Source of the DNA: Zingiber officinale
Taxonomy: Eukaryota > Streptophyta > Magnoliopsida > Zingiberales > Zingiberaceae
Direction: 5' to 3'
Length of the DNA stretch: 64,000 nucleotides
Assembly: GCF_018446385.1 (NCBI RefSeq)
Contig: NC_056000.1
Span: 30,272,011-30,336,010, forward strand
Position 1 is the stretch's first letter. The number at the start of each line of letters is the position of its first letter. A model generated the notes under the pieces. That model was not told the DNA's origin, did no database searches, and saw only the letters and a program-made list of their open reading frames with translations. The position numbers and the translations under genes are program-made. Positions 3,181 to 54,410 of this stretch are shown here, piece by piece.

Positions 3181-5779
3181 CTACCAAGTGTCTAGTCAAC
3201 ACTGACCCACTTAGATTTTTATTTCTGCCAACCTTCCTGTTGGACTTGTCTTTGCCTAACCTCCAGTTAGGACTTTCCCAGTTAAGTAATCGGTCATCCT
3301 TGACCTACTTGACTCTTCTTCACATCAAACTGGTCAAACCTTAACCAGAGGAGAATTGCACCAACAATCTCCCCCATCAGACAATTGCACCTGCAATCTC
3401 CATATATTGTCAAACATCGAAACTCACACATCAAGACTCAAGCTTGATCCAATTTAAGCTTAGTCAATTTGGTCAACCTTTACCCAGGGATATTATACCA
3501 ACACCATTTTTAAGAAGGATCTCTTAGAGGGATCATAAAAATTATACCCCTTTGATTCTCAAAGTAACCTACAAAATTATAGCTAACTGCACTTGAGTCA
3601 AGTTTTCTTTCGTTAGGCCTGTAAGGCCTAGCTTCAGCTAGATAACCTCAAACGTGTAAATGCCTAATGTTAGGATTTCTACCCATTCACATCTCGAATG
3701 GGGTTTTAGTTACTGCCTTACTGGTACTTTATTGAGTAGATAAACTGCAGTCTTGATTGTTTCACACCATAAGAACTCTAGGAGAGAAGTGAAAGTCATC
3801 ATATTTCTTACCATGTCTTTTAGGATTCGATTGCGATGCTCAACTAACCATTCTGACTAGGTGTACCAGCATGGTATATTAAGTCACAATCTCACACTCA
3901 GCAAGGTAGTTCATAAAAGGTCCTAAACGTTGTTCACCTGATTCATCATATCGACCATAATATTCACCTCCACGGTCGGATCATACGACTTTAATTATCT
4001 TACCTAGTTGAAGTTTAACTCCGTCTTTGAAAATTTTAAACATGTCCAAAGATTATGATTTCTCATGAGTAAAGTATAGATAGTCAAATCTGACGGTTGT
4101 CTGTGAAACTAATAAAATATGTGTGTCCATTCCAAGATACCTTAAGGAATGGTCCACAAATGTCTGTATGTATTAGCTCTAAAATGTTATTACAACAGCT
4201 AGCCCCCTTATTCCTTTTGTTAGTGGTTTTCTCCTTAACACACTATATGCAGATATCAAAGTCTGACATGTTAAGGAAATCAAGAATTTCATGTGGCATT
4301 AACCTTTCAAGGCGTTGTTTGGATATGTCCTAAACGTCTATGCCATAACATGGAAGAATTTTCGTCGGTCAATTTATGTTTTATACTTATACTATGCATT
4401 ATTACATTGTCAATCATATGAGTAAAAGAGTTCAATTTATAAAGCTTATCAACCAAGAAATCATTACCAACCAACACTGAATTAAAGAAAATACTGAAAA
4501 TTCTATTTCTAAATGAATAAGAATAGATTTGTCCGAACAAAAATATATAACCTGATTTTTTCAAACAATAAATTAAATTAAATTCTATCAAAAAGATAGT
4601 ACAATAAATGCATTTTCTAAATCTAGAAAGATATTGGTTTCTAAACAAAGCCTAAAATACCAATCGACTTGACTTTAGCATTGTTTCCATTTCCTGTATA
4701 GATGTATCTTTCACCATCAAGCGGAAGTCGGCTCCTGAGACAACCCTACATAGTGAAACTTATGTGAGTAGTAGTACCGATATCTACCCACCAAGTATCA
4801 GTGGATACAATAGATAAATTGACTTATGAACTAACAAAGTTGAGAAGTTTACCTTTCTTTATATGGTAGTTGGCATACTTGAGACAATCTTTCTTCATAT
4901 GACCTTTCTTCTTACAAAAGAAACAAGTGGATTCCTTATTCTGCTTCTTATGCTCCTTGTGGCCATTGCCTCTAAAATCTGTAGTTTGTTTTTCTTTTCC
5001 TTTATGTTATCGATCCTCTTTCGCTGCTTGCTCGCACTTTGAGAATCAGATGTTAAGTGAACGCTCTCAGATGTCTCAATCTTTAGTCTTCCTTTCTCTT
5101 GCACACATTGTGCAATGAGCTCATTCAATGTCTACTTTTCCTTTAGAGTATTAATAATATCTTAAAAGGAGTGATCTGTGCAGGCAGAGATATCAAAATG
5201 AAATGCACTAACATACCCTCAGACATATCGAGTTTTAGTACTTTCAGACTTGTCACTATATTGGACATCTCCATAATATACTCCCTTATATTTTCTTTAC
5301 CATTGTATCGCATGGTTACCAACTTCGTAAGAAGTGTGGTAGTCTCAACCTTTTCATTTGAGGTGAATCGGTCTGCCAATTGATTCAGGAAACTCCTAGC
5401 ATCTCCTCCCTCTGTTATTGAGTCCTTTATTGGTGCCGGTATGAAAATCCTCATAATACTCAGACACATGTGATTTGATTTCTCCAATAGCTAAAATTCA
5501 GCCCTCTGCTTTATAGTGCTAGCACTGGTCAGAGGTGTGGGACGATCATTCCTTAATGTATAGTCTAAGTTCATACAGCCTAAGACTACAATCACATGTT
5601 CTTTTTATTCAGTAAAATTTGAACTAGTTAATGTTAGGATATTATTAATACTTGCGGTTACAAATTGCACTGAAATTTAAAAAGAGAAATTTATTTAAGA
5701 TCATGATTTAACTAAACCCAAGAACATATAAGTAACATAAAATTATGTAAATAAAATAAATTTTTAAATGCGCATAAAT

Positions 5780-5807
5780 CACTACAACAAAAACTGCAAA
5801 CGACAAC
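5780..5807 (+). repeat. CACTA left terminal inverted repeat
   Basis: Twenty-eight bases starting CACTACAACAAAAACTG and ending CGACAAC, perfectly inverted at 22573-22600. Preceded by AAT, the target duplication. Confidence 0.95.
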
Positions 5808-6060
5808 ACCCCTACGACAACGGTTTTAAGAGAAAGCGTTGCGTATTTGCTCAAAGACAACGATTTTTGCCAAAACCGTTGTCTTTGAACTCCCCATTAA
5901 ATATAAAAGACAACGATTTTAGCAAAACTGTTGTCATTGAGCGACTTTTTTTTTAAACGACAACACTTTTTACAACGGTTTTATAAACCGTTGTCTTTAT
6001 CCGCGTTTTTAGCGGCTACGACAACAGTTTTGAAAAAACCGTTGTAATTGAATTTGGTCA
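5808..6060. repeat. CACTA left subterminal repeats
   Basis: About eight copies of a 10-15 base motif (ACGACAACGGTTTT and its complement AAAACCGTTGTC) alternate in both orientations. Such subterminal arrays are the transposase binding platform in CACTA elements (established for En/Spm). Copies are only mildly diverged. Confidence 0.85.
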
Positions 6061-6189
6061 TTTCCCCCCTTCGCTGTTTTCCTTTCCCTCGCTGTTTTCT
6101 TTTCGGCGCCGTGTTTTCACGTTCCCAAAGCTAAGCCATTTATCTTTCCCTCTCCTCATACGACATTGTGCTCCTTCTTGTTTCCTGGT

Positions 6190-6436
6190 GAGCGGCGGCG
6201 TTCTCCAATGGGTTGCCAAAGATCCAGACGCATGGGAGGGAAAAACCGGAGAACGGGATCTGCCACGACGACAGTGCGCCGCCGGTGAAGGCGAAGACCA
6301 TCGACGAACTGCACTCCCTGCAGAAGAAGAGGTCGGCGCCGACCACCCCCATCAAGGACGGCGTGCAGCAGGGCAACGCTGCCTTCGCCACCATCTCAGA
6401 GGAGGAGCGCCAGAAGCTCCAGCTCCAATCCATCAG
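6190..6436 (+). pseudogene. PCK1: Captured PEPCK exon 1
   Basis: Encodes the N-terminal region of plant ATP-dependent phosphoenolpyruvate carboxykinase: GLPKIQT, then ICHDDSAPPVKAKTIDELHS, LQKKRSAPTTPIKDG and EEERQKLQLQSI, matching the family from memory almost residue for residue. The reading frame stays open and the exon ends at a plausible donor (CATCAG then GTCAAT at 6437). The true initiator ATG of PEPCK is not seen in frame, so the capture probably began inside the first exon. PEPCK turns oxaloacetate plus ATP into phosphoenolpyruvate and CO2 in the cytosol; this piece alone lacks all catalytic residues. The same gene continues at 18782-19856, with the central exons missing. Confidence 0.88.
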
Positions 6437-6559
6437 GTCAATATTTAATCTCCAAACAAACATCTCTTTCTCAATAATAAAAAAAGGGGGAAACATCCAG
6501 ACTCCTTGCCGGATACTGGTGGGCCACCGTCGGATCGATTTTTCTAAACCTAAAAGGAA

Positions 6560-7033
6560 ACAATTCGTGAGAATAAGAATCCTTGAAGCACCTGAACCTC
6601 GTTTGAAGAATCCTCCTGCTGCCGAAGAGCCAAAAAAGAACAAGAAGATCAATGTTGAAGATGAGATCGATGTGAAGTATAAATCATTTAAGAAATTTGA
6701 TACTGTTAAAGAACACTCAGATCACTATTTCAGCATCCCAGAGCATCTCGATGGTGTTCCGTCTTGTCGGGAAATTAAGGTAAGTGTCATCTCTCTTAGG
6801 GATGATAATTTCCATTGATATGGTTATCTGAATCTACCCACCACGGTCGGTGTTATATGATCGATTGCATAAATAATGGAGATGAGATTGATATAGAAGT
6901 ATAGCCTGTCAGTAGGGCAGGGATGTGGCAATGAATGATGATAATTTCCTAATCTGTTTTTATTGACAGCCTTCAAAAAATTGGGCAAAAAGGATTCAAC
7001 TTGAGTGGAAGCTTCTAGAGAAAGATTTACCTG
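6560..7033 (+). pseudogene. Captured PHO2/UBC25-like E2 ubiquitin-conjugating enzyme exons
   Basis: Exon one (about 6560-6779) encodes INVEDEIDVKYKSFKKFDTV and a following EHSDHYFSIPEH. It ends at a clean donor (AAG then GTAAGT). Exon two (6970-7033, acceptor TTGACAG) encodes PSKNWAKRIQLEWKLLEKDL and ends at CCTG then GTAAG. This is the stretch just before and into the UBC fold of large plant E2 enzymes of the PHO2/UBC23-UBC25 group, which typically reads SKNWVKRIQ-EWKILEKDLP. The catalytic cysteine region lies further on and is absent. The fragment lies between two PEPCK pieces in the same orientation, so it was added by a separate capture or by template switching. Family assignment rests on remembered motifs. 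Confidence 0.72.
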
Positions 7034-7377
7034 GTAAGATCATTCTATTTTAGGTATTCCGACTTTACACTCTTTTGTTTATTACAATTGTTTTACACTA
7101 TAAATTCTCTGATTGTATCAAATGCTTGTATAAGTCTACTGTTTGTGAAGAGTTCTTTTTTTTTTATTTTCAAAATGCTTTTATTTAGTTATTTAGGCTT
7201 CATTAACAATTTATAATCAAGTAGGTTGGAAACGCTAGAATTTTAGATGTAAATAAAGTTTCCTTAATTTTCTGGTCTAGGGAAAAAAGATACCCAAATA
7301 AGTTGAAATATCTAATCATCCATGCAAGAGTATTGGCTTCTATGAACCCAAATGACTGTTAAATTTCATATGTAAAT

Positions 7378-10166
7378 TGTCACGCCCCCAGAGGAGACCC
7401 TGTCCGAGAAAATTTCGGCAGCATCTCCCCTGTACGGTGGACAATCTGAAACTTTTCTACATCTCATATACCTCAGCCACAGACGGCTGGAATAATAACA
7501 GGAAATAATAACAATCACCACGCAGTTTATATATATATTCAGCCTCTGGCTGTCACAACCACGCAGTATATAATAGTAAACAACAATAGTACTCTGACTC
7601 GAAATCCACCCTACTCAACTACACTCGTAAAGCTCAAAACCGACGAACTCACCTCTTATGCCGTCCAGGCAGGCATGTAGTAGATTAAATCCAAAATCCA
7701 AATCCATCGATATAATAAAATCTATACGATGTCCATAAGTAAATAAATCCAGAACATAACAAGTGCAAACAGTCTAGAACAGAAAAGGAAATCAAACGAA
7801 AACCCAATCACATCCTCGAGGTCTGCAGGGACCAGCAACTGGAACTCTCTCCTGACAGCATCAACTTGAAAATATCAACAATGGAGGCGGGTGAGTCCAA
7901 CACTCAGTACAATTGATATGCAAAGTAAAGAAACAACACCTAGCACTAATCATGCATACCGATAAGAAAGATAAAATGCATCTGAAGTAAACAGGAAGAA
8001 CTGTACTAACCCCCGAGTATAAGGTCAAACAGTCCGAGTGGTATAGGAATCCTGGATGCATGTCAAACATAGGTATCCAAACAATATGCAGATATAAATG
8101 CAAAGCACAAACACAGCAATAAATGCATCATGCATATGATGCCAATGATGCATCCTGGTCACCCGACGCCATCGATCATCTCACACACAATAGTGAGGCC
8201 GAGTGGGTAGGGTGATCACTCTGTCGTCACTACTCCCGATGAGTGACCGAGTGGACGGATGTTGTCGAGTACACCTATCCTCCTACCCCAAATCATAAAT
8301 GGGGAGCGCAATGCTCTCAACTCCCGGACGATGACGGGGAGGAATCCCTGCCGGATAACACGTTGTGTCACACTACCCATGAGCGGACCAACGGTGCCTA
8401 ACAGAGTCCCTGCTGCAACACACTCTGCCTGAATCGACCACTAACCCATGAGTGGTGGTGTGTGCAGATCCATGTAACTGGCGATGTGCTCAACAATAAT
8501 GGAGCGGACTATCGCACAGCATGCAATCATGCAAATGATGCATGGCAATAACCATATAAACATCCTGACTTAATCCATATATATAGAAAAGTGCACCCTA
8601 GGTCAACGAATCATATCGAATCAAAGGTACACAGAAGGTATAAAAACCTAGGTCCTGAACATGGTGAAGCATGGTATATCACTACCCCCTATAAGCATGT
8701 ATAAACAGGTAAAATATACATGAGATGCAAATCAATCAATCAATCAAGCACGTACCAAGATTTGGGTAGTGATTAACCGAAACAGATAAGAAACACAATT
8801 GATGCAATATGTTAATTTCATTACTAGGCATATCAAAGACAAAAAGTCAAAAGTACCCGCCTCCGATAAAATGGTCCAAATCCTGACTCCGAGATACTCG
8901 TCTCGCGTCAAAGTCCTGAAATACCGATATACAGATATTTTATTTAGCTAAAATTCAAATGAATTGCTAAATAAAATTCTCAACACAATTTAGGGCAAAA
9001 CCCTGAGTCATAATCATCAACCTACCTAATTTAACACATATAATTTAGTTACTCAACATATATTAAATAACTAAATCAAACTACTCACTCAATTAGGAAA
9101 ACCCTAATTATTGATCAACCTTAACTGATAATCAATTAACTTATCCACATCAAGACCTAAATCCACAACGTTAAACCCAAAAATCTTACCTTTCACTGAG
9201 ATCTAGGTTAACAACTATTGCTAATACAGTTTAGAAATCAAATTACCAAATATATCAACACCTACACCTCACCTTATGCAGTAGTTAACTTAATACAAAC
9301 CTTACCCAAATTTTCCGATGCCTCAACACTGCTCAAATCCTAGAGAACTTAATGCCGAGATCCGAAGAAGCTGCTGTGAGAAATCAGTGACAAATACCAC
9401 TGTAATCAGCCAACAAATCCAACATAGGATCCCAAATCAACAATCCAAATACCTAACATGCCTTACCTACTCAATACCCCCCTTGTTTCCTCTCTGCCGG
9501 CGACTGGTGGCGAAGAAGGAAGACCCGCCGGTGGAGTCTGAAGCACAGCAGATGGTTGCTGGACCTTGGCGTCAGCAATGGACGTTGGGCAGAAGGTAGA
9601 GGAAAATGAGGCTCGGCAGAACCCAGGGCAGAAGAATTCGGGGTGCTGTGCTGCTGAGGTCAAGCAGCCGGCGGCAACTCGTCGGACCAGAGAAAGGAAG
9701 AAGAAATCGCCGGTCGGCCGGGGCTGGCTAGGGCACCGAGGGGTGCGTCGGCGATTAGGGCACAGCCGTCGGCTGTGGAGTCGTCGGGTGAGGCTCGGCA
9801 GGCACGCGCGGGGAGAGAAGAAGGGATGAAGAAGTGCCGAGGGGTTTAAAACTTCGGCGAGGAAGAAACCGCCGGCCGACGATTAGGGCTCGGCATCGGC
9901 TTCGGCACGCGCGGGAGGGGAAAGAAATGGCACGGTTCGGCGTCGAGGGAAGGAAAAGAAAACGGGAATAAAAATAAGGAAAAAGAAAAAGAATTAATAT
10001 ATATAAACTTTTCCTCACTTAAATGGGGTAGCCTAAACAGGATTTTCCGGACCCCGTTTTTATCCCCGTCAACTCGTCCGTACGAGCTCCGAAAAATTCC
10101 CGAAAAATTTCCAAAAATTTCGAAAAATTCCCTTATTAATATTCGCCTATTTTCCAGTATTTTACA
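7378..10166 (-). repeat. 3' LTR of the chromovirus
   Basis: Starts TGTCACGCCC and ends TTTTACA on the + strand; the complement of a polypurine tract (TTCTCCCCCACTAA) follows. A GC-rich part near 9480-9920 contains frames repeated identically in the other LTR; they are not treated as genes. Confidence 0.95.
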
Positions 10167-13100
10167 TTCTCCCCCACTAATAAAAATTTAGTCCCCAAAT
10201 TTCATTATCTACCATCAGCAAGTACTAACAACAGATATAGAGTATAAATGCTGAACGGTAAATAAATCACATACCTCACGTAAAAAGATGGGGATATCGA
10301 GCTCGGATCGTATCCTCAAGCTCCCAAGTAGCCTCCTCATCCGAATGATGCTGCCATCCGACTTTAACCAGCCGGATGGTCTTGTTCCGCAACTGACGCT
10401 CCTTCCGATCGAGAATCCGTACCGGAACCTCCTCATATGTAATGTCAGGCTGAACTGGAACCGGAATATCTGCCAGCACATGTGTCGGATCAGGCACGTA
10501 TCTCCTCAGCATCGATACGTGAAATACATCGTGCACGCCTGACAGGGACGGTGGTAGTGCCAGTCGGTAAGCTACTGCTCCGATCCTCTCCAAGATCTCG
10601 AAAGGACCAATGTACCGCGGAGCTAGCTTACCTCTGAGGTCGAATCTCTTCACCCCTTTCGTGGGTGAAACTCGTAGAAATACATGGTCGCCAACAGAGA
10701 ACTCTAGTGGTCTGCGTCTCCGATCAGCATAACTCTTCTAGCGATCCTGCGCCTCTGACATCCTCCATCTGATAGTACGGACCAACTCTGCATCCTGATG
10801 AACTCTATGAGGTCCCAACAACTGGGCCTCTCCAACCTCATCCCAAAGGACGGGTGTCCGACAAGGTCTACCATACAACGCCTCAAACGGTGCCATCTGG
10901 ATAGCCGAATGAAAGCTATTGTTGTAGGTAAACTCTACCAACGGTTGATGATCCTCCCAACTGCCTCCGAAATCCATAACACATGACCTCAGCAGGTCCT
11001 CTAAAGTCTGAATGGTCCGCTCTGACTGTCCATCTGTCTGTGGATGGAAAGCTGTACTGAAACGGAGCTGTGTACCCAAGGCCTGCTGCAGCCTCTGCCA
11101 GAACCGAGACGTAAACCGTGGATCTCTATCCGAAATGATACTCAACGGAACACCATGTAGTCTGATGATCTCTCGACAATACAGATCTGCCAATCGATCC
11201 AGGGAATCAATCCTCCGGATCGCTAAGAAGTGCGCTGATTTGGTTAATCGATCAACGATTACCCAAATCGCGTCATGGCCTCGTCGTGTCCTCGGCAACC
11301 CTACCACAAAGTCCATGGTAATGTGATCCCACTTCCACTCAGGAATAGGAATCCGCTGAAGTAATCCTGCAGTGTTCAGCCTTCACCTGCTGACAGACAA
11401 GACATCTAGCTACGAAATCCGCGATGTCTTTCTTCATGCCGTTCCACCAATAGGAACGCCTCAAGTCTCGATACATACGGGTCCCGCCTGGATGGATCGC
11501 AAATCGAGAACGGTGTGCCTCCTGAAGTAGCTCCTGTAAGACCGGATGAGACTGAGGTACGCATAATCTGCCTCGGAAGAATATAATACCCTCCTCGTCT
11601 CGTGTAAACTCGGTCTGCTGCCCGGAAGCTATCTGACTGCTAATAAACTGCAAATGCTGATCACTGGCCTGTGCCTCTCGGATCCTCGTCCTGATCGACG
11701 ACTGAGCAACCATGGTAACAAGAATACCCTGCTCTGTCGGTCCCTGCTCCTCAAGATCTAACTCCGAGAAACTCTGAATCAAGTCCGTGACTGAAGTCCG
11801 GTGGCAAGCCAAAGTCCCTCTGGACTTCCTGCTGAGCGCATCGGCAACCACATTAGCTTTTCCCGGGTGGTAGCTAATGGTACAATCGTAGTCCTTCAGG
11901 AACTCCATCCATCTCCTCTGTCGGAGATTAAGCTCCTTCTGAGTGAAAATGTATTTGAGACTCTTATGATCAGTGAGAATCTCAAATGTGATACCGTATA
12001 AATGATGACGCCAAAGCTTCAGAGCAAAGATGATGGCAGCTAACTCCAAGTCATGAACTGGGTAGTTCTTCTCATGCTCCTTCAGCTGACGAGAAGCATA
12101 AGAGACTACTCTGCCGTGCTGCATCAGAACAGCGCCCAAACCCTGAAGAGACGCATCGGTGTAAAGTACAAATCCATCCTCTCCAGAAGGTAAAACCAAA
12201 ACTGGAGCCGACACTAATCTCCGCTTCAGCTCCTGGAAGCTGGTCTCGCAATCCTCGGACCATATGAACTTCACGCCTTTCCGGGTAAGACGTGTCAGTG
12301 GCATAGCAATACGCGAGAAGCCCTCGACAAAACGTCGGTAATATCCGGCCAATCCCAGAAAACTGCGGATCTCCTGAACTGACTTCGGCTGCTCCCAACC
12401 GGTGACAGCCTCGATCTTCTGAGGATCAACTGAAATACCTCTGCTAGAAACCACGACTGCTTGCACACTTGGGCCGAACTGCTTAAAGCTTGGTGTGGCC
12501 GGAGAATCTCCAAGACTGTGCGAAGATGCTGTGCATGCTCCTCCTCGGAACGAGAGTAGACCAATATGTCATCAATGAAAACGATAACAAACTGATCCAG
12601 ATACTCCAGAAAGATGCGGTTCATCAAGTCCATAAACACCGCTGGAGCATTGGTAAGCCCAAATGGCATTACCAAAAACTCATAATGACCGTATCTGGTA
12701 CGGAAAGCTATCTTCTGGATATCAGAATCTCTGACTCTCAACTGATGATATCCGGATCGCAGATCAATCTTAGAATACACTGATGTACCTCTGAGCTGAT
12801 CAAACAAATCCTCAATCCGTGGTAATGGATATTTATTTCTGATGGTCACTGCATTCAGCTGCCTGTAGTCAATACATAACCTCATGGTGCCGTCTTTCTT
12901 CTTGACAAATAGAACTAGAGAACCCCATGGTGAAACACTAGGGCGAATGAATCCTCTGTCTAAAAGCTCCTGGAGTTGAACCTTCAGCTCGTTCAACTCT
13001 TTTGATGCCATACGATACGGAGCTTTCGATGTCGGCGCGGTTCCCGGAATCAGCTCAATAGCGAACTCCACTGGACTTCTGGGAGGCAAACCTGGCAGCT

Positions 13101-15802
13101 CCTCTGGAAATACATCTGGGTACTCCCGGACAACAGGAACGTCGGAGAGCTGCGAACTACTACTGTCCTCAGTACTGATCAACGATAACAGAAAACCATG
13201 ACAGCCGTGAGACAGCAGCTTCTGCGCCTGAATCGCCGAAATAATCGAGATGTCGTCGTCTCTGATGCCAGTGAAACTCCACGAGGGTTGGTTCGGAGGC
13301 CGGAAGGTGACCACCCTCGTCTGGCAATCAACGGTAGCATGATACACTGACAGCCAATCCATGCCAAGAATGACATCAAACTCGACCATCTCCAATACTA
13401 GAAGATCTACCGTAAGTATCATGTTGCCAAAGTCTAACGGGCAACCTCTGATCTCCTGGGTGACGTCTAAAGTATCACCGGACGGTAGGGAGACAGTCAA
13501 TCGCCGCAACCTAACAGTAGGTAATCTACCAATCTCCCGCATAAAGGTACGGGATATAAAAGAGTGCGAACTACCAGTATCAATCAAAATATCAGCAGTA
13601 AATGCATAAATGGAAATCGTACCGCGGAAAACGGATCCGTCGGCCCGCTGAGCATCCTCTCTGGTAATAGCATGAACACGACCAGTCTCTGGCGGAGGAG
13701 GAGGTGGTAATGCTGCCAGCGGCTGCTGCGGCTGGGCAGAAGCCTGCCACTGAGGCGCTGCTGGACTATGTGCCAGATAAGACTGAGAGGATGGTGACTG
13801 ATACTGTGCAGCTGGCTGGGACTGAGTCTGATACTGCCCCTGAGTCGGATAATAAGGTCCTGGAGCAAAACTCTGGGGTGCTACAGAAGCACTGGAGTAC
13901 TCCTGTCCAAGCATGCCGCTGACGCTGTGAAGATTGGGCTTTCTGCCCTCCTCGATATGCCCCTGACTGACTAGACTGTCCCCTCTGACCTGACCCTCCG
14001 GAAGCCGTGTGCTGAGCCTTCAGCTGACAATCTCGGCTCTGGTGCCCCGGCAGTTTGCAATAAAAGCAAACTGACTGTCCCAGAGAGCAAGCTGGGGTGA
14101 GGTGATCTCTGGATCCACATCTGAAACAATGAGTATCACCGGAAGGTGGTTGCCGGTTCTGCTGAGAAAACCGGGAACGTCCTGAAGAAGACCGCCCTGA
14201 TTTCTGAGGCCTACGAGATGCCCCAGAAGTACCCTGACCTGACCGTCTGCGACTACTCTGAGGCTGTCCTGTCGCCTGAGTCTGCTGGACCTGCCCTGAT
14301 GTCTGACCCGTATGCTTTCTTTTCCTGTCCGGATATGCTGTCTGCCGAGCTAACTCTATCATCAAAGCTCGATTCAATGCATCAGAGTAAGATGTAATCC
14401 CTAATCCGGCAAGCTGTACATGCAGATAACCATCCAATCCCTGTATAAACTGCATCATGCGAGTTCTGTCCTCCGCAACTAACTCTGGACAAAACTGAGC
14501 CAACCGGAGGAATTCAGTATTATACTCGGTCACTGAGCGATTATTCTGCCTCAGACTCATAAAATCCTGTCGGCGAGACATCTGATAGGACAGTGGAAAG
14601 AAACGACTCTCAAAAGCCTCTCTAAACCTGGTCCATGTGACGTTGCGCTCACCAATAATAGAACGCTGAGTAACCCACCAGGCATTAGCTTCATCCCGTA
14701 AATGGTAAGCAGCCAGCTCTGCTTTCTCCCACTCGGAGCAAGCCATATAGAAGAAAGTCTGCTCCATAGTCTCTATCCATGACAGAGCCATACTTGGATC
14801 GAGATCTCCGTGGAAAAGAGTGAAACGAGTCTTCATCGACTCAGCTAGTGCTGGAATCCTAGCTCGTGTAGCGACAATATCAGTGAGCTGTGTCGGGATG
14901 GCTGCAGGAACTGGCGGAAACACTGGAGCTGGTACTACAGGTGGTACTGCGGAATAAACCGGAGGAGGAACTCCCGGTGCTGTTGTATACACCGGAGCAT
15001 AAGCCGTCGGTGGTACTGTCTGGGGAACAAAGGTGGTGGCAACTGGAGGTACGGTAGGTAATGGTACCGGATATGGTGCAGCAGCTGCTACTGTAGGCAC
15101 TGGGGGTACAGGTGCCACTGGTATAGGATACACTGTAGATCCAAGTGGTGGTAGCACTGAATACGACGTAGGCTGCGCTGGAGCAGATGTCGGGTACACC
15201 AATGGTACCCCTGATGGTACTGTAAACAGGGTAGGCGTGGATACCATCGGTGTGGCCAAAGTAGGTATCTCTACAGGAGCTATCGGGATTTGAGAGCCCG
15301 ATGCTCCCGCTGCATCCTGAGTCTGTCCCTGACTGACAGACTCACTAACAGTGGGCATCTCTGGCATATCCAGAGATCCCGTGGTCCTCGCACGTGGTCG
15401 ACCAGCACCACGTCTCGCAGCAATACGAGTAGATCGTCTCATATCTGTTAAATTAAATTACAGATATCAATACCAATATAACCAACATAAAATAACAACA
15501 TACCTATTTGCCGTCTGGAGATGTTCCGTCGCTGTCCAGTCCCCAAATTTGAACATATCGCCGGAAATCCAAATAAATTCGAAACGAAAATCCGAAACAT
15601 AACCATATCGAAAATCCGATAATGCCCAGTTTGACTCGCAAACCTGGCTAACCCAAATATCCAGAATACCCACAACCGGTATCCGATAAATCTCCAGAAC
15701 ACCAAAAGCAGGTATCATAACCCGCTCTGATACCAAATAAATTGGAATCAGATAAATCCCGAAAATCCAAAATACAAAAAAAATAGAATATCGTAAAACT
15801 GT

Positions 15803-15814
15803 GCTCTGATACCA
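15803..15814 (-). other. Chromovirus primer-binding site (Met-tRNA type)
   Basis: Complement of TGGTATCAGAGC, 6 bases from the LTR edge. It fixes the element on the minus strand. Confidence 0.85.
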
Positions 15815-15820
15815 CTAAAT

Positions 15821-18651
15821 TGTCACGCCCCCAGAGGAGACCCTGTCCGAGAAAATTTCGACAGCATCTCCCCTGTACGGTGGACAATCTGAAACTTTTC
15901 TACATCTCATATACCTCAGCCACAGACGGCTGGAATAATAACAGGAAATAATAACAATCACCACGCAGTTTATATATATATTCAGCCTCTGGCTGTCACA
16001 ACCACGCAGTATATAATAGTAAACAACAATAGTACTCTGACTCGAAATCCACCCTACTCAACTACACTCGTAAAGCTCAAAACCGACGAACTCACCTCTT
16101 ATGCCGTCCAGGCAGGCATGTAGTAGATTAAATCCAAAATCCAAATCCATTGATATAATAAAATCTATACGATGTCCATAAGTAAATAAATCCAGAACAT
16201 AACAAGTGCAAACAGTCTAGAACAGAAAAGGAAATCAAACGAAAACCCAATCACATCCTCGAGGTCTGCAGGGACCAGCAACTGGAACTCTCTCCTGACA
16301 GCATCAACTTGAAAATATCAACAATGGAGGCGGGGTGAGTCCAACACTCAGCAGGTACAATTGATATGCAAAGTAAAGAAACAACACCTAGCACTAATCA
16401 TGCGTACAGTCTCCTGATAAGAAAGATAAAAATGCATCTGAAGTAAACAGGAGAATGCCGTACTAACCAGGTCCTGAGTATAAGGTCAAACAGTCCGAGT
16501 GGTATAGGAATCCTATATGCATGTCAAACATAGGTATCCAAACAATATGCAGCATATAAATGCAGCAACCACAAACACAAGCAATAAATGCATCATGCAT
16601 ATGATGCCAATGATGCATCCTGGTCACCCCTGACGCCAGTCGATCATATCGCACACAATAGTGAGGCCGAGTGGGTAGGGCTGTGACAACCGTGCACTCT
16701 GTCGTCACTACTCCTGATGAGTGACCGAGTGGACGGGATGCTGTCGGAGTACACCTATCCTCCTACTCCAAATCATAAATGGGGGAGCGCAATGCTCTCA
16801 ACTCCCGGTACACAGTGACGGGGAGGAATCCCTGCCGGATAACACGTTGTGTCACACTACCCATGAGCGGACCAACGGTGCCTAACAGAGTCCCTGCTGC
16901 AACACACTCTGCCTGAATCGACCACTAACCCATGAGTGGTGGTGTGTGCAGATCCATGTAACTGGCGATGTGCTCAACAATAATGGAGCGGACTATCGCA
17001 CAGCATGCAATCATGCAAATGATGCATGGCAATAACCATATAAACATCCTGACTTAATCCATATATATAGAAAAGTGCACCCTAGGTCAACGAATCATAT
17101 CGAATCAAAGGTACACAGAAGGTATAAAAACCTAGGTCCTGAACATGGTGAAGCATGGTATATCACTACCCCCTATAAGCATGTATAAACAGGTAAAATA
17201 TACATGAGATGCAAATCAATCAATCAATCAAGCACGTACCAAGATTTGGGTAGTGATTAACCGAAACAGATAAGAAACACAATTGATGCAATATGTTAAT
17301 TTCATTACTAGGCATATCAAAGACAAAAAGTCAAAAGTACCCGCCTCCGATAAAATGGTCCAAATCCTGACTCCGAGATACTCGTCTCGCGTCAAAGTCC
17401 TGAAATACCGATATACAGATATTTTATTTAGCTAAAATTCAAATGAATTGCTAAATAAAATTCTCAACACAATTTAGGGCAAAACCCTGAGTCATAATCA
17501 TCAACCTACCTAATTTAACACATATAATTTAGTTACTCAACATATATTAAATAACTAAATCAAACTACTCACTCAATTAGGAAAAACCCTAATTATTGAT
17601 CAACCTTAACTGATAATCAATTAACTTATCCACATCAAGACCTAAATCCACAACGTTAAACCCAAAAATCTTACCTTTCACTGAGATCTAGGTTAACAAC
17701 TATTGCTAATACAGTTTAGAAATCAAATTACCAAATATATCAACACCTACACCTCACCTTATGCAGTAGTTAACTTAACACAAACCTTACCCAAATTTTC
17801 CGATGCCTCAACACTGCTCAAATCCTAGAGAACTTAATGCCGAGATCCGAAGAAGCTGCTGTGAGAAATCAGTGACAAATACCACTGTAATCAGCCAACA
17901 AATCCAACATAGGATCCCAAATCAACAATCCAAATACCTAACATGCCTTACCTACTCAATACCCCCCTTGTTTCCTCTCTGCCGGCGACTGGTGGCGAAG
18001 AAGGAAGACCCGCCGGTGGAGTCTGAAGCACAGCAGATGGTTGCTGGACCTTGGCGTCAGCAATGGACGTTGGGCAGAAGGTAGAGGAAAATGAGGCTCG
18101 GCAGAACCCAGGGCAGAAGAATTCGGGGTGCTGTGCTGCTGAGGTCAAGCAGCCGGCGGCAACTCGTCGGACCAGAGAAAGGAAGAAGAAATCGCCGGTC
18201 GGCCGGGGCTGGCTAGGGCACCGAGGGGTGCGTCGGCGATTAGGGCACAGCCGTCGGCTGTGGAGTCGTCGGGTGAGGCTCGGCAAGCACGCGAGGGGAG
18301 AGAAGAAGGGATGAAGAAGTGCCGAGGGGTTTAAAACTTCGGCGAGGAAGAAACCGCCGGCCGACGATTAGGGCTCGGCATCGGCTTCGGCACGCGCGGG
18401 AGGGGAAAGAAATGGCACGGTTCGGCGTCGAGGGAAGGAAAAGAAAACGGGAATAAAAATAAGGAAAAAGAAAAAGAATTAATATATATAAACTTTTCCT
18501 CACTTAAATGGGGTAGCCTAAACAAGCTTTTCCGGACCCCGTTTTTATCCCCGTCAACTCGTCCGTACGAGCTCCGAAAAATTCCCGAAAAATTTCCAAA
18601 AATTCTGGAAAATTCCCTTATTAATATTCGCCTATTTTCCGGTATTTTACA
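15821..18651 (-). repeat. 5' LTR of the chromovirus
   Basis: Same ends as the partner LTR. The primer site GCTCTGATACCA precedes it at 15803-15814 on the + strand. It is about 42 bases longer than the partner; most differences fall in one stretch (16320-16810 against 7880-8340). Confidence 0.95.
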
Positions 18652-18781
18652 TAAATACAATTCGTAGATCAACTTCTGCACTTGGCATAATTCTACATAT
18701 CTAGAGGATTCAGATATCCAAAACATGTAAACTAGAAGAAGAAAAACTCTCTTTTGCATGAAATAATTGGAAGGATCGCAG

Positions 18782-19856
18782 GTGCATCCGTACTACGCCT
18801 GAAGAACTGGAGGATTTCAGTACTCCGGACTTCACAATTTACAATGCTGGCCAGTTTTCATTTAATCGATACACACACTACATGACTACCTCCACCAGCA
18901 TTGATCTTCATCTTGATAGGAAAGAAATGGTCATCCTTGGCACACAGTATGCCGGGGAGATGAAGAAGGGTTTGTTCGACGTGATGCACTATCTAATGCC
19001 TAAAAGAAACATTCTCTCCCTGCACTCTAGCAACAATATGGGCAAAGATGGTGATGTTGCCCTTTTCTTTGGACTATCAGGTAAGTGTTGGTCGGACGAG
19101 ATTCTGGTGCATCACCTGCCCATTGCATGGTTACTATACTGCCCTTTGCAATTTAACTAGAAGCATTCCATGTGTAAATGTGTAGAATTATGTTACACTG
19201 CAGTGTTTTCGCCATATGGCTTCTTTGTTCTTATGACTTTTGCTTTGTTGTTTTAGGCACAGGGAAAACTACTCTGTCTACAGACCACAACAAGCTTCTT
19301 ATTGGCGATGATGAGCATTGCTGGAGTGAAAATGGTATTTCAAACATTGAAGGAGGTTGCTATGCAAAATATATCAGCCTAACAAAGGAGAAGGAACCTG
19401 ACATTTGGAATGCCATCAAATTTGGAACCGGCAAGTGCCCTATCAAACTCGACATGCACTTTGAACTGGAACCATTCATATTTTTTTGTCCTAATGTTTG
19501 CAAATTTCTTGCAGTGTTGGAAAACATCGTTTTCGATGAACACACTAGGGAAGTAGACTACTCTGATAACTCTATTACAGGTGATTAACAAGATGAAACA
19601 AACTTCTTGAGTGAATTGGTATTGTGTGAAAGGGAATCTAGTTCAATGGAATTGTTGATGTTGCTGAGAACACTCGAGCTTCATATCCAATTGAGTATAT
19701 TCCTAATGCGAAGATACTGTGTGTTGGTCCGCACCCTAAGAATGTCATCCTCTTGGCATGTGATGCTTTTGGCGTGCTTCCACCAGTTAGCAAACTTACT
19801 TTACCGCAAACAATGTATCACTTCATCAGCGGTTACACTGCTCTGGTGCATAGTCC
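18782..19856 (+). pseudogene. PCK1: Captured PEPCK exons with the ATP-binding P-loop
   Basis: Four exon-like blocks. (1) 18782-19080 encodes [20 protein letters not shown] then [20 protein letters not shown] and [16 protein letters not shown]. (2) 19257-19430 completes the P-loop ([26 protein letters not shown]). (3) 19515-19580 encodes [19 protein letters not shown]. (4) about 19668-19856 encodes [36 protein letters not shown] and [12 protein letters not shown]. Introns are retained, so the capture was from genomic DNA, not mRNA. The intron at 19431-19514 has a GC donor and AG acceptor. The splice acceptor of block 4 is not clear. The block between exon 1 and CIRTTPEEL is missing, as is everything after GYTALV, so no functional enzyme can be made. 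Just beyond, the frame runs into transposon-type sequence leading to the Ulp1 gene. Confidence 0.93.
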
Positions 19857-20917
19857 ATTGCATCAAGCACATCGTTATGTCTTGGAAAATGATGTTGACG
19901 TTGATCCTTATATCGAGTAATTCTCTTACTTATTAATATTTATTGCACTGTTCTTACGTTTTACTAATTAACTTATTAGTATTCTATTAGTTAACTTATC
20001 CCTAATCTGTTCATTAGGGATAAGTTCATATTTGTGGATCCACAAACCCTTCCAGTAATGTCATATGTATCCAAACTTGACAAAAATGAAAAGACTGAAT
20101 ACTTGAATAGCTAGGCAAGTGTTTTGACTGATAGGCTGAGTGGTGCAACAAAAAATCAACTAGTTTTGGCACCTCATAATGTTAGGTAAATAAATATTAC
20201 AATTCCATTTTTAATAGATTTATTTCAACAATTCTGTTGAATTTATGCATTGACTCTGTTTTGTGCATAGTTGTCATTGGATTTTGACTGTCATTGACCC
20301 TTATGTGGAGATGGTTTATTTGTTCGATTCATTTAATCATCACAATCGTTATGAGGACTGTAAATATGTAGTGGATATGTGAGTACATATTTGTTTTTTA
20401 ATTAAGCATTTAATTTAATTTATTAATCATACGTCAACTCTTGTTGTACAAAGGAGCTTGAAATTGTTCAATTCGAACAAGCAAAGGAAAGAGAAAAAGA
20501 AGCCTATGTGGGAAGTCGTAAAGGTTTGTATATTATATATACACACATATGTTTACTTGTGATTAATTTAAAAATATTTAACTGTGTATTATTTGTTGAT
20601 AATTTTTTGTTAACATAGGGTCCTTGACAACCTGATGCTAAACAATGTGGGTTTTATGTGATGAAATTTATGAGAGAAATTATTGAAGGAAATGCTACCG
20701 GTGAGAAGGATTCACTTAGCTCAATGGTAATATTTGACATATTCTCAATTTTCTCAAATAATTTCTTTTATTTGACTTTGCTTCTTCATTACTGATTTTT
20801 TTTACTAATATAATCTGGGTTTGTTAACAGTTCATGAAAACAATTTACTCCAACGAAGAAATTGAGGAAGTGCGATCCGAATGGGCAGATTGCGTACTAG
20901 ACTATATTCATTACTAG
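19857..20917 (+). pseudogene. Ulp1-type C48 cysteine protease gene of the CACTA element
   Basis: Split over about five exons: [20 protein letters not shown] (to 19918), DKFIFVDPQTLPVMSYVSKL (from about 20019), CHWILTVIDPYVEMVYLFDS (about 20270-20378), SLKLFNSNKQRKEKKKPMWE (about 20453-20525) and QPDAKQCGFYVMKFMREI with a tail to DYIHY and a stop at about 20915. The C48 signature residues are visible: His in CHW, Asp in the LFDSF segment, Gln and Cys in QCGFYVM. In-frame stops at 20112-20114 (TAG) and 20625-20627 (TGA) suggest it is dead. Ulp1-like proteases cleave SUMO-type conjugates and are frequent passengers of plant CACTA and MULE elements. Its 5' end is fused in the same orientation to captured PEPCK sequence. 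Confidence 0.85.
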
Positions 20918-22160
20918 GTATAAATTACTAGACTTCAAAAGATGGTTGAACACTTTGTTTGTGACTCCATGACTTATTGATTTTGATTCCTTAGTGCTAA
21001 TAATTTGTTTGTTCACAGCTAGCTATCTCCTTTGCTCAATACTTCATTCTTGCATTTCTACAATTAGCTGACATTTCCCTTATTTATTGTCTCTCTTTGT
21101 GGTCCAAAATTAATAATGGTTGGGTTGTGTGAGTAGCTGACATCTATATACTGCAGTTTGATTTCTTAATAGTTTGCTCTATATACTTTTGCTTGGACGA
21201 GCAATGTAAATTACCCGTGAATTGCACGTGCATTGCAGCTAAATTTGTTAGATTTTCTCTTTGTATTGATGAAATGGGAATGAAAAATCTATTTTTCCAG
21301 CTGGAATGTAGTGAATGTTATAGCTCTTAATCTACACTTATTTGATTGACACTTTGGTTCTTTTAGGTGTCCTATGTAATTATTAAAGTTGTGCATATGT
21401 GATTTCTATTTTGAGGAATTTGTGGAATTTTTTTAGCTCTACAAACAATTCACCCTACCATAACTTGTTACTTGCAAAATGGAAAAGCATATTGTGCCTA
21501 CCAGGTCTCAAAGGTAATGCAGTCTGAAAAATGGCACAGAAAATTGCATGAATATTTTGTTTCAAGATGTTAATGGATGTAATGCGCTTTGCATGGATTC
21601 TATTGATCTTGGATGATAGTTCACTTAAATAATGTTAATTGCATGCAGTGCTAATTATTTAATAAACTATGCTAAGCTAGGTATCACTGCTCCTAGTAGA
21701 TTCCATGTACTGTTATTCTCTAATAAACATCTCTTTTTGTTTCCTTCATTTGGTTTGTTTTTCCCTTCTATGCACTACAGATTGGTTAATTACATTCTCC
21801 TTTTGGAATTCTGGAATTTGATAAGTTTTGTTAAATTTTCTCTTGCAGGTCGGGCAATTCGTGAGGCTTGAATTTTTTTGATGCAAAAAGTGAGCTTTGT
21901 TAGGATGTAGCTTGCCTTGCTAATTTGTAAATTAAAAGCCATATGGAGAACAGCAAATGGAAAACATGTGATTTAATGTATATGGAGAGTAATGGAAAAC
22001 ATGTGTATTTTGATGAGTAACAACTCATTTTGTATATTTTTGTATATGTGGCTACAAGATGAATTATATATGGATGTTTATTTTGGATTTAATGTAGTAA
22101 ATATTTAGTTTTGTATTGGTGGTTTGCTTATAATAAAATAAGATTGGTTGTTTGGTATTA
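20918..22160. other. 3' flank of the Ulp1 gene within the CACTA element
   Basis: AT-rich sequence with no convincing coding region. It probably includes the 3' UTR and unique internal DNA of the transposon. Confidence 0.5.
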
Positions 22161-22572
22161 ATGAACATTAAATACAACAGTTAAAAATGTTGTAAAAACT
22201 AGGTAAACCACAACGAAATTTTTTTGTAAAAAGTGATAAAAGACAACGGTTTTATCCGTTGTAAAATATATTAAAACTGTTGTAAAAAAAACAAAACGTG
22301 TCAAATATTATCTACCACAACAGTTTATATCTGTTGTAAAAAATGTCTACAACAACGGTTTATTTCTGTTGTTGAAATTATCTACCACAACGGTTTTAAA
22401 ACGTTGTCGTATCCTTCGTAGCCAAATTTTGGGCATATAAATAACAACGGATAAAAACCGTTGTCAAATGTCTACAAAGACAACGGATTCAAAACCGTTG
22501 TCGTAGGGCAATACATTCTACAACACCCTCAGTTACAACGGTTTTTTGACCCTACGACAACGGATAATATCC
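22160..22572. repeat. CACTA right subterminal repeats
   Basis: Twelve or more copies of ACAACGG/CCGTTGT-type motifs in both orientations, the same family as at 5808-6060. Density rises toward the terminus. Confidence 0.85.
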
Positions 22573-22600
22573 GTTGTCGTTTGCAGTTTTTGTTGTAGTG
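22573..22600 (+). repeat. CACTA right terminal inverted repeat
   Basis: Exact inverted complement of 5780-5807, ending TTTTTGTTGTAGTG; followed by AAT, the target duplication. Confidence 0.95.
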
Positions 22601-22603
22601 AAT

Positions 22604-28432: not shown

Positions 28433-30031
28433 TCATCTGCTTGCAAAGCTCAATACGAGAAACAACTTATTGCTTGCCTGATCCATAACCAATGCCACAA
28501 CATCTTTTATCTTCTCCATCAGTTCTTCCAGACTATCCACTCCAAAGTTTCTCAGGTTGATGTCTTTCTTGTATCGCTGCTTGTATAAAGCTTGAAATGA
28601 ACTAAGGGGAACAGGGCAAGAGTAACAAATGAGAAGCTCTTGTACTTCTTGTCTAATACATTGAAGTTGATCCCCAAACTCACCAGAACCTAAGAGAGGA
28701 TCATCATTCTTCTCATCATCCGAGAACCCATCAGATGAGTATCCTGAATGAGCAGAGGCAATTATCTCCGTGTTTTCCTCCAGAACTTGCTTTCCCTTAT
28801 CAATCTTCACGGTTGTTGGTCTACCAGGAAAACTCGTATCACTGTTGCGTAGGCACACCAGCTTCTTATGTCCCTTTCCAACCACAAATAATGTATCATC
28901 GCCCATTTTCTTAATGAGGGGCACCAACTTGCATACTCCATACTCTGCCATATAAAGTGGCCGGCCAAAGAACTTTAGATACTCTGAAGGAACACGAGGA
29001 AGAGGCATACTCCCGCCAGACATCTCAAGCAGCTTGACTATTTGACCTTTCAGACCCTGAAGGTCTCCTGGCTGAACCCACCATGCTTGTTCAGTTACAT
29101 TGTTATCTACTCCTGCACCTTTATTTAGGCATGATGGGAATCCTTGAGATTTTGATGAAAAATAAGGCCCTGTGAAGTTGCTGCTGCTGTATTCATTGAA
29201 TGAATATGAAGTTTTACCAACTCCTCCAGATGTATAGGCAGAGTTGTGGCAAAGGTCACGGCCAATGTTTGATTCAGTGACATATTCATGTTGAGAAATT
29301 CCTTTGTAGACAATGGCCTCCTCATCATTCTGAATATTTTGTGTCACTTCTATGCCACAACTACTAAGACATGGAGCGAGATCAGAAACACCAGCCATAA
29401 AAGAGTTCGCAGGAACAAAACCTTCACCTCGTGCTATGCTAGGCCAGTTCCAAACAAATTGCCCAGCATTGATGAGAGCTGACGAAACACCAACTCCAGA
29501 AGGAATTACAAGGATTACAGTGTAACCACGCTGACCAAGTATATGCAAAGCTGGAGAAAAATCTACATCCCCAGAGATTAGCATGATCGAAGATGGCGGC
29601 CGATTGTCAAGTGCAAAAAGAAACATGTCAACTAAGATAGCTTTGTCAGCAGCATCTTTTCGCCCACTTGGAACATCTACTAGTTTAACCCCAGTTCTTT
29701 GGCAACCTTCTCTTAGCCTTCGAGGGAAGGCATTGAAATCCCCATAAGCAGAAAACATTGTGACAGCTCCTCTAATGACAGGGTGCAGCCGTAATGCCAT
29801 TCGAATGTTCCCAGCAACATCTTCAGGGCAAACATCATTAGGGACTGGACAGTTCTCAATATCCCAAAGGATTGACACAGGTTCATGCAAGGACCCTGTT
29901 TGCAGATTATGTGTGTTAGCTGGGTCTAGTTCTGAATTTATGTAAACCACATTGTTTGGATTTGAGATATCTGGTGCCATAATTTTCGGAGAAGAGGAGC
30001 GATTGGCCATTGTTTTATCTTCATAAGCCAT
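28433..30031 (-). CDS. NYN-LOTUS domain protein (MARF1/limkain-like), 532 aa
   Basis: Single coding exon starting at an ATG (30029-30031). Residues 52-197 form an NYN (PIN-like) nuclease domain: VSILWDIENCPVP, a KDAADKAILVDM helix and LISGDVDFSPAL, with the acidic residues D57, D126/D129 and D155/D157 expected of the metal site. Two LOTUS (OST-HTH) domains follow: about 323-397 (LKGQIVKLLEMSGG to KLVCLRN) and about 457-530 (CIRQEVQELL to LFLVLSFA). The linkers are Ser-rich. NYN-LOTUS proteins are RNA-binding proteins or RNases; animal MARF1 is the best known member, and plant members are largely uncharacterised, so the RNase role is inferred. The region just upstream of the ATG has a good acceptor (ATCTAG, 30041-30042), suggesting a 5'UTR intron. 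It looks intact. Confidence 0.9.
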   Translation of the reverse strand: MAYEDKTMANRSSSPKIMAPDISNPNNVVYINSELDPANTHNLQTGSLHEPVSILWDIENCPVPNDVCPEDVAGNIRMALRLHPVIRGAVTMFSAYGDFNAFPRRLREGCQRTGVKLVDVPSGRKDAADKAILVDMFLFALDNRPPSSIMLISGDVDFSPALHILGQRGYTVILVIPSGVGVSSALINAGQFVWNWPSIARGEGFVPANSFMAGVSDLAPCLSSCGIEVTQNIQNDEEAIVYKGISQHEYVTESNIGRDLCHNSAYTSGGVGKTSYSFNEYSSSNFTGPYFSSKSQGFPSCLNKGAGVDNNVTEQAWWVQPGDLQGLKGQIVKLLEMSGGSMPLPRVPSEYLKFFGRPLYMAEYGVCKLVPLIKKMGDDTLFVVGKGHKKLVCLRNSDTSFPGRPTTVKIDKGKQVLEENTEIIASAHSGYSSDGFSDDEKNDDPLLGSGEFGDQLQCIRQEVQELLICYSCPVPLSSFQALYKQRYKKDINLRNFGVDSLEELMEKIKDVVALVMDQASNKLFLVLSFASR

Positions 30032-52985: not shown

Positions 52986-54410
52986 TTGACGATTGTCTTT
53001 TTATCTGGTCGACATTTTTTAGTCGCCCGGTCGAGATTTTATGGTCGTTGGGTTGGTATTTTCTTGGTCGCGCTCAGAGTTTTACTCGTCGATCCGTCTC
53101 TCTATTACCCGGTCGCGATTTTACTATCGCTGGGTTGGTATTTTCTCAGTTGCGCGCTCGACATCGCTCGCCCGTTCTCATTCCGCTCGATCGACATTAT
53201 CTTTATTTCTTGATTGGTATTTCCTCGGTTGCGCACTCGACATTGCTCACCTGTTCTTATTCCGCCCGACCCGCATTCTCTATATTACTCGGACAACATT
53301 TTTTCGATCGCGCTTACGGATTTACACATCCTGGTTGCGGTTTACTGTCGCTCGGTCGACATTTTTCTCAGTCGCGCTCACAGCTTCGCTCGTCCATCCT
53401 TCTCTCTATTGGTCGATCACGATTTACTGTCGCTCGGTCGGCCCTCGCTCGGTCACGATCAAGGCTTTGCTCGTCCATCACGCTCTTTATTGCCAGGTCT
53501 CGATTTACTGTCGCTTGGTTGGCACTAACTCGGTCACGATCTTGGTTTCGCTCCTTCATCATTCTCTTTGTTGTCAGGTCGTGATTTACTATCACTCGAT
53601 CGGCACTCGCGCGGTCACGCTCTTTATTGTCAGGTCGCGATTTACTGTCGCTTGGTCGACACTCTCTCAAGCGCGCATTCGGTTCTACTTATCCGTCAGT
53701 CTACTCGCTCGGCATTATCTCGGTCACCTATTTTTTGATTGCCCGATCACGATTTACTATAGCTTGGTCGACACTTTTCCGGTCGCACTCACGGCTTCGC
53801 TCGTTGATTCGTCTCTCTATTGCCCGGTCACAATTTATGGTCACTCGGTCGGAATTTCTTTCTAGGTCGTGCTCGTAGCTTTGAGCGTCCATCATTCTCT
53901 TTATTTCTCGATCGTGATCTATTGACACTCGGTCGATATTTCCTCGATTGCGCTCACGGCTCTGCTCGCCCGACACTCTCTCTATTGCCCGGTTGCGATC
54001 TATTGACACTCGATCAATATTTCCTTGGTTGCGCTCATGGTTCTGCTTACCCATTATTCTCTCTATTGGTCGGTCACGATTTACTGTCGCTCGGTCGACG
54101 CTCTCCCGGTCGCGCTTACGAATTTACTCGTCCTGGTCGCGATTTATTGTCGCTCGGTCAGTATTTTTCTTGGTCACGCTCACGACTCTGCTAGTCTATC
54201 ATTTTCTCTATTGCTCGATCACGATTTATTATCACTCGGTTGACACTTTTTCGATCGCCCAGTATTGATTTATTGTCGCTCAATCGTTTTACTCAGCATC
54301 TCTCGACCGTCTGCTCAATATCGCTCGACATTCACCAGATCGCTCTTTTGACACTCGCTCGATATGCCTTTTGTCGCTCGATCGGCGCTTATTCTTTTCA
54401 TCGCTCTGCT
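52986..54410. repeat. Minisatellite of about 100-base units (LARD interior)
   Basis: About 13 units of roughly 100 bases recur with phrases GGTCGCGATTTACTGTCGCT, CGGTCGACATTTTT and TCTCTATTGCCCGGTC. Divergence is moderate and unit order is scrambled. It ends about 130 bases before the purine tract of the element. Confidence 0.85.

Follow-up and report, generated by a model that had tools for sequence, protein, structure and literature searches.

A Non-Autonomous CACTA Family of Ginger with Alternative Loads of Host Gene Segments

Introduction

That a CACTA element can hold several captured host genes is already known. The Pack-CACTA and other Pack-TYPE elements of Arabidopsis, maize, and rice, as presented in the portion of PMC8903248 consulted, are non-autonomous, multi-copy units in which host coding DNA lies between ends shared with CACTA transposons. 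In maize they often hold more than one locus, Pack-CACTA most of all, and loci are gained stepwise within a family. Tgm-Express1 of soybean, as outlined in the consulted part of PMC1947982, is a 5.7-kb CACTA element that has captured five fragments of host genes together with their introns; it is inserted in a flower-colour gene and gives chimeric transcripts. Host gene fragments have also been captured inside CACTA elements of Chenopodium, where they are located 5′ to the coding part; a nested series of loads is not noted in the consulted sections of that paper (PMC8978399). Here we describe a 64,000-bp stretch of the ginger (Zingiber officinale) genome, C15:30272011-30336010 (hereafter the window), in which a 16.8-kb CACTA element at 5780-22600 carries pieces of a phosphoenolpyruvate carboxykinase (PEPCK) gene and of a UBC24/25-type E2 gene. 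We consider it highly probable that this is a non-autonomous Pack-CACTA element with serial host-gene captures, in which the captured exons are passengers. Its identity, its loads, their order, and its movement, i.e., everything except the capture mechanism, appear to be firmer still.

The ginger family shares the listed traits of Pack-TYPE elements, including more than one locus per element and stepwise gain. It differs from them, as far as the consulted portion of PMC8903248 goes, in that its loads are large and intron-containing (about 0.7-2.5 kb) with sources known at 92-98% identity, and in that successive loads replace earlier ones and do not merely extend them. Like Tgm-Express1 it holds several intron-bearing host fragments, and like the Chenopodium elements it holds them inside; unlike the soybean element, it is a dispersed family with alternative loads, known from sequence alone. 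The genome used comprises 3,090,333,446 bases in 211 contigs. The ginger assembly has been reported as eleven chromosome pairs and 3.1 Gb in the consulted part of PMC8342452, a paper whose main text does not once mention "CACTA". A literature search judged by title found no published CACTA-captured PEPCK. Three things are new: the family itself, its succession of loads that overwrite earlier ones, and the sources traced for them. An earlier note on this DNA had presented the joined array as one with no known precedent; its novelty is smaller than claimed, since multi-gene CACTA captures are described in the parts of PMC1947982 and PMC8903248 consulted.

The Element and Its Presumed Parent

The unit is delimited, as the earlier note had proposed, by a perfect pair of 28-bp terminal inverted repeats beginning with CACTA (CACTACAACAAAAACTGCAAACGACAAC) and by the target-site duplication (TSD) AAT on both sides (Table 1). 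The 28-mer occurs 1268 times in the genome with at most one mismatch, the reversed control 0 times. Subterminal ACAACGGTTTT/AAAACCGTTGT repeats lie in both orientations near both ends. With CACTA-starting ends, a 3-bp TSD, subterminal repeats, and a tnp2-bearing partner having the same ends, the element shows all the features of the CACTA (En/Spm) superfamily.

The joined flanks with one AAT match C16:26207421-26208213 without interruption at 94% identity, and the stretch retrieved from C16 has one AAT and no element inserted. The best 40 of 1267 candidates were scored for this query; the remaining 39 listed matches are at 86-88%, because the flank itself is a dispersed repeat. Source and paralog loci discussed below occur as chromosome pairs C3/C4, C5/C6, and C7/C8, and therefore C15/C16 are read likewise as two haplotypes of one diploid.

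A candidate parent, C1:71100346-71112240 (11.9 kb), possesses the terminal repeat pair, a Transposase_21 domain (PF02992, E 7.7e-99), DUF4218, and an 814-amino acid (aa) frame. The transposase search scored the best 150 of 6544 candidates, and further transposases exist in the genome. Inside the window element only a 163-bp tail of the transposase was found; it is in frame with the last PEPCK exon, and the same peptide ends the parent's 679-aa open reading frame. Where the parent's 1.8 kb after the transposase was read, the sole match to the window element is 29 bp. Among the first 100 listed perfect 28-mers, which cover the genome as far as into C3, there are 28 plus/minus neighbour pairs less than 30 kb apart, with sizes of 4.1-7.1 kb (23 of the 28), 11.9 kb (two), and 14-24 kb (three).

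Captured Host Gene Segments

The four-part plus-strand array announced in the earlier note is present, and an 11.3-kb Gypsy retrotransposon nested within the unit had been overlooked. The PEPCK donor is C7:159756355-159759669 with its allele C8:137425235 (97.6% identical to each other), to which the element is 95-97% identical, introns included. The element's PEPCK exons match PF01293 with E 2.9e-36, 8.1e-29, and 1.9e-27; these values and the donor match from 6192 confirm the proposed exon 1 and P-loop exons. The donor exon pieces are open from the ATG to near the end of the retrieved part. The captured PEPCK starts within exon 1, past the start codon, and the last exons are also absent. At the donor loci, no CACTA end is present at the position that corresponds to the start of the captured part. 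The exons of block 2 lie at 18782-19080, 19257-19430, 19515-19580, and 19667-19846, and the splice acceptor ahead of the last one has been lost in the window copy (AG to TG). Two other assignments were rejected. The pair C5:3134034/C6:5085210 is a paralog with only 86-87% identity, introns included, as against 95-97% for the C7/C8 donor. The 60 bp at 6494-6553 are not filler: the paralog frames hold the same intron stretch, which has been lost from the C7 donor allele and partly from the C8 allele.

The host has four PEPCK genes with two alleles each (8 loci). A genome search with PF01293, in which the best 91 of 434 candidates were scored, places the P-loop exon at no fewer than 65 places, 8 at host PEPCK loci and at least 57 elsewhere, the window element included; these counts were made by hand with some places unread and are lower bounds. 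The 52 merged stretches consist of the 8 host loci, 2 stretches in the window element, and 42 at other element places.

The second load comes from C3:1018178-1018866/C4:1095733-1096421. The sibling element on C1 is 97-98% identical to this source; the value for the window copy in Table 1 was measured from 6583 across 693 aligned columns. The next exons of the source gene match UQ_con (E 2e-9 and 1.7e-7), and a joined query of the gene retrieves E2 enzymes of the UBE2O/BIRC6 class from the PDB; the 88-aa peptide alone gave no Pfam match and no PDB match. Both positive results agree with the label UBC25/PHO2 given in the earlier note. Thus, the E2 origin named in the earlier note stands, limited to the first two coding exons of the gene, the catalytic part being absent. 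With the donors of both genes located, on C7/C8 for PEPCK and at C3:1018114-1018866/C4:1095669-1096421 for UBC, host-gene capture by the CACTA element, as had been proposed, is supported. An insertion of ~107 bp within the UBC load (6583-7377), flanked by the short direct repeat ATGTAAATA, is shared by the element copies read; the donor lacks it.

As for the C48 protease, its single exons fall below the cut-off; five joined pieces, with X at two stops, match PF02902 with E 2e-12. The domain assignment therefore holds. We reject a C48 gene of the window element, since the sequence matches another repeat and carries stops: what had been taken for a gene is a transposase tail followed by a stop-broken Ulp1 fragment.

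The Family and the Order of Capture

PEPCK is the load common to the family. The PEPCK-UBC-PEPCK-C48 array is present in 6 copies, namely the window element, C1:66282772, C4:4028202, C13:99084667, C5:120067361, and C10:64782615, of which the last three are truncated or interrupted. TSDs were assessed for the three copies with both ends, the other stretches showing one end only, and turned out to be distinct: AAT in the window, TGG and CTT in the siblings. The same array with different 3-bp TSDs has therefore moved after its assembly, and the recurrence that the earlier note had looked for is found. With host gene DNA between CACTA ends, no autonomy, and a UBC load in 23 copies (window element included; 33 of 33 first-look candidates scored) with differing TSDs among those read, the family has the features of Pack-CACTA.

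These data bear on the idea that an old segmental duplication produced the exon pieces and that the CACTA ends around them are unrelated. No supporting point was found, and the same load with the same ends elsewhere with different TSDs, the PEPCK donors without ends, and the empty site on C16 all speak against it, so that its probability is negligible. The earlier note had allowed for this outcome or for siblings devoid of inverted ends. Neither was found: the PEPCK donors lack a CACTA end at the breakpoint, and the siblings possess the ends.

Three further loads were traced. An epimerase load is present in 6 copies (14/14 candidates scored), its source being C3:104445545/C4:91472128 at 98% identity; it matches PF01370 with E 1.3e-11 and TIGR01179 (galE) with E 7.9e-22, the latter under its cut-off. 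A B-type response-regulator (ARR-B) load is present in 11 copies (25/25 scored), with sources on C3/C4 at 96% and 94%. The ARR-B peptides gave no useful Pfam match; their identity comes from NCBIfam and the PDB, the donor peptide matching TIGR01557 (myb_SHAQKYF, E 5.1e-12) and ARR1 (E 3.7e-14). The fifth segment, whose identity as a gene is not established, is present in 17 copies (31/31 scored), 16 beside a PF01293 P-loop exon and one (C10:18154469) beside the left CACTA end; its sources are C8:130265831 (93%) and C7:122644498 (92%). The sources of all five loads are present on both members of a chromosome pair at 92-98% identity. They are confined to two pairs, C3/C4 (UBC, epimerase, ARR-B) and C7/C8 (PEPCK, fifth segment); this clustering could be due to chance or to local capture. 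Sense orientation is common to C48 and the four identified host loads, the events being too few for strand-bias statistics. PEPCK-bearing copies also hold two other types of load, about 0.76-0.85 kb in size. An attempt to identify the loads of C19:74140393 and C21:94530348 gave no identification.

The positions of the loads show the order of capture: PEPCK and C48 came first, UBC second, and epimerase or ARR-B last. This follows because the UBC load lies beside nearly all epimerase and ARR-B copies while five copies have PEPCK and C48 without UBC (C20:35286176, C20:58150710, C11:47155369, C6:69714851, and C13:96860690). In these five the PEPCK block keeps the order of the donor, two of them having small deletions, and several have a shortened or interrupted C48 part. 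UBC replaces donor PEPCK positions ~450-1452. The epimerase copies are broken 18 bp past the PEPCK/transposase junction and continue from a late point of the C48 part, and the ARR-B copies are broken inside the C48 part and continue in the element 3′ end. The UBC load is found in or within 13 kb of all six epimerase and 10 of the 11 ARR-B places. It is 10-13 kb away at C7:30450763, C11:66029157, C4:42810902, and C5:12062339, each taken as one interrupted element, and in the 11th ARR-B copy, C6:49422990, a deletion spans the UBC place. In a tree of the PEPCK block (28 sequences), the 24 element copies form one clade apart from the donor alleles and paralogs (support 0.88), which indicates one PEPCK capture. 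The family is thus modular, and the array of the window is one among several alternative configurations.

Coding Potential of the Captured Exons

Could the array be an expressed, functional chimeric gene? All identified pieces read in the sense direction, a frame from PEPCK exon 1 into UBC is uninterrupted in the window copy (208 aa), and the PEPCK-transposase junction is in frame. The test for codon constraint, which covers PEPCK block 2, points the other way. Among 24 copies, 60/240, 56/239, and 45/240 sites are variable at codon positions 1, 2, and 3, and 88/423 in introns (Fisher P = 0.11, in the direction opposite to constraint); the donor and its paralog differ at 6, 3, and 24 sites of codon positions 1, 2, and 3, respectively (P = 3.6e-6). 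Block-2 exons have in-frame stops in 8 of the 24 copies and gaps in others, and the window copy, stop-free there, has the lost splice acceptor. The PEPCK-UBC frame is complete in four of the 15 UBC copies shown (window, 208 aa; C16:48588676, 208 aa; C13:23989244, 197 aa; C5:12072422, 83 aa after a deletion) and stops earlier in the other 11. Moreover, PEPCK is represented without its start codon and C-terminal exons and the E2 gene without its catalytic part, and the C48 frame is not intact. A functional chimeric gene is hence very improbable. We conclude that the captured exons appear to be passengers on which no coding constraint can be detected; they resemble decaying cargo more than a new gene at work.

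Junctions and the Capture Mechanism

The junctions display 2-9 bp of microhomology or short filler. Shared by both sides are GCGGCGGCG at the left CACTA/PEPCK junction, AAAA at UBC/PEPCK, TTGC at PEPCK/transposase, GA at transposase/C48, and ~2 nt at transposase/epimerase; the PEPCK/UBC junction has the 3-nt filler TCC (6580-6582). The left ARR-B junction carries a 31-nt filler, the first 18 nt of which form, with the preceding 2, a 20-mer that also occurs in the element 3′ part (window 21959), 18 bp past the far edge of the gap. The filler matches at 19-20 of 20 positions in nine of ten copies read, and its source at 17-20 of 20 in eight of eight. At the right epimerase junction a 25-nt piece is repeated. 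Filler templated in this way suggests that repair synthesis jumped between templates, a route that seems to be favoured because the filler copies DNA from across the gap.

The history reads as follows. A CACTA element that shares the 28-bp ends and encodes a tnp2 transposase exists and is the presumed parent. In the family, a ~2.5-kb PEPCK piece, without start codon and last exons, is set between that parent's 5′ end and its transposase tail, and a C48 fragment from another repeat comes after the tail. The UBC24/25 piece took the place of ~1 kb of the PEPCK part, and in sub-lineages an epimerase or ARR-B piece that of C48 sequence. The loaded element spread to many places, presumably mobilised by the parent's transposase via the shared ends, and the window copy was hit by the Gypsy element afterwards. 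At each capture, synthesis repairing an internal gap may have jumped to a host gene template, with closure by microhomology or filler. We lean, with some reserve, towards such copy-type gap repair with a template switch as the route by which the loads may have entered.

The capture of Pack-CACTA elements has been modelled otherwise, as a fusion of neighbouring insertions, after Catoni 2019 (consulted parts of PMC8903248 and of the review PMC13317346); the consulted part of PMC8978399 invokes a mechanism put forward by Rubin and Levy. Applied to ginger, two family elements flanking a host gene would be mobilised as one and the inner ends deleted. The model is published for Pack-TYPE elements (PMC8903248, portion consulted) and predicts contiguous internal host segments, as the captures read here indeed are. 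It has difficulty with the sources, which are still on both chromosomes of each pair, so that removal by cut-and-paste would require restoration; with the ARR-B filler copied from the opposite gap side and the repeated epimerase piece, which are signs of copying; and with the C48 and transposase parts, which would require further fusions. We therefore regard fusion as rather unlikely.

Several observations weigh against the gap-repair history. The mechanism is read from junctions only, and fusion of neighbouring insertions with end joining also yields contiguous host DNA with microhomology. In C6:49422990, one of the ten ARR-B copies read, the filler match is only 14/20. The PEPCK-block tree is star-like, its UBC-less (0.77) and UBC-bearing (0.73) groups are weakly supported, and the ARR-B and epimerase copies form no clean clades in it, a mixed placement that exchange between copies could explain; trees of the element 3′ end do not resolve the loads. 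The parent was read in parts that lie outside 71106801-71110699. The most far-reaching version, a fossil series of at least five host-segment captures, three of them nested in the order PEPCK, UBC, and epimerase or ARR-B, with every later one overwriting the middle by template-switch repair, stands in our view at an even balance.

Other Features of the Window

Table 1. Features of the CACTA element in the window (positions in the window).
Feature	Position	Strand	Evidence
Target-site duplication AAT, left copy	5777-5779		Sequence reading; single AAT in empty site C16:26207700-26207940
28-bp terminal inverted repeat, left	5780-5807	+	100% complementary to 22573-22600
CACTA family 5′ end with subterminal ACAACGGTTTT-type repeats	5780-6191	+	5780-6086: 92.6% identity to left end of C1:71100346-71112240
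PEPCK block 1: exon 1 minus start codon and part of intron 1	6192-6579	+	6192-6493: 95.4% identity to donor 105-408
UBC24/25-type E2 fragment, first part (first two coding exons)	6583-7377	+	93.9% identity to host gene C3:1017900-1019100
Nested Gypsy (Ty3) long terminal repeat (LTR) retrotransposon	7378-18651	-	LTRs 7378-10166 and 15821-18651; gag, protease, reverse transcriptase, RNase H, and integrase domains
UBC fragment, last 63 bp	18657-18719	+	97.0% identity to donor over 18657-18723
PEPCK block 2: four exons and introns	18720-19861	+	96.8% identity to host gene C7:159756355; PF01293; splice sites
Tail of the CACTA's own transposase (tnp2) frame	19858-20020	+	97.5% identity to transposase region of C1:71100346-71112240
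Peptidase C48 (Ulp1-like) fragment, two in-frame stops	20019-21465	+	20019-21138: 95.6% identity to C6:25478600-25480900, other dispersed repeat
CACTA family 3′ end	21462-22600	+	Versus right end of C1:71100346-71112240: 21828-22600 94.7%, 21647-21695 95.9%
28-bp terminal inverted repeat, right	22573-22600	-	Pairs with 5780-5807
Target-site duplication AAT, right copy	22601-22603		Sequence reading; empty site on C16

The Gypsy retrotransposon makes up 11.3 of the 16.8 kb of the CACTA element. Its two LTRs are 97.6% identical (23 mismatches, 26 gap openings), and its TSD, by sequence reading, is TAAAT at 7373-7377/18652-18656. The siblings C1:66282772 and C4:4028202 have no Gypsy at the corresponding point, where the left half runs directly into the right half, and measure 5.7 kb from end to end. 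The Gypsy LTR is present at many further genome places. Outside the element, a 532-aa open frame on the minus strand at 28433-30031, with NYN (PF01936, E 3.1e-26) and OST-HTH/LOTUS (PF12872, E 1.5e-19) domains, is probably a host gene. Two plus-strand frames of 274 aa (53041-53865) and 412 aa (54665-55903) have no Pfam match at E 0.01.

Significance

The family carries a warning for gene annotation, since the P-loop exon places outside the host PEPCK loci number at least 57 vs. 8 at the host loci. The route of gene capture by CACTA elements is debated, and the ginger family lets two capture models be compared directly, because a single genome shows, at low divergence, a presumed parent, sources on both chromosomes, intermediates, and junctions. 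If the account of a series of overwriting captures is true, copy-and-switch gap repair, and not the fusion of neighbouring insertions, would be the main capture route in this CACTA family.

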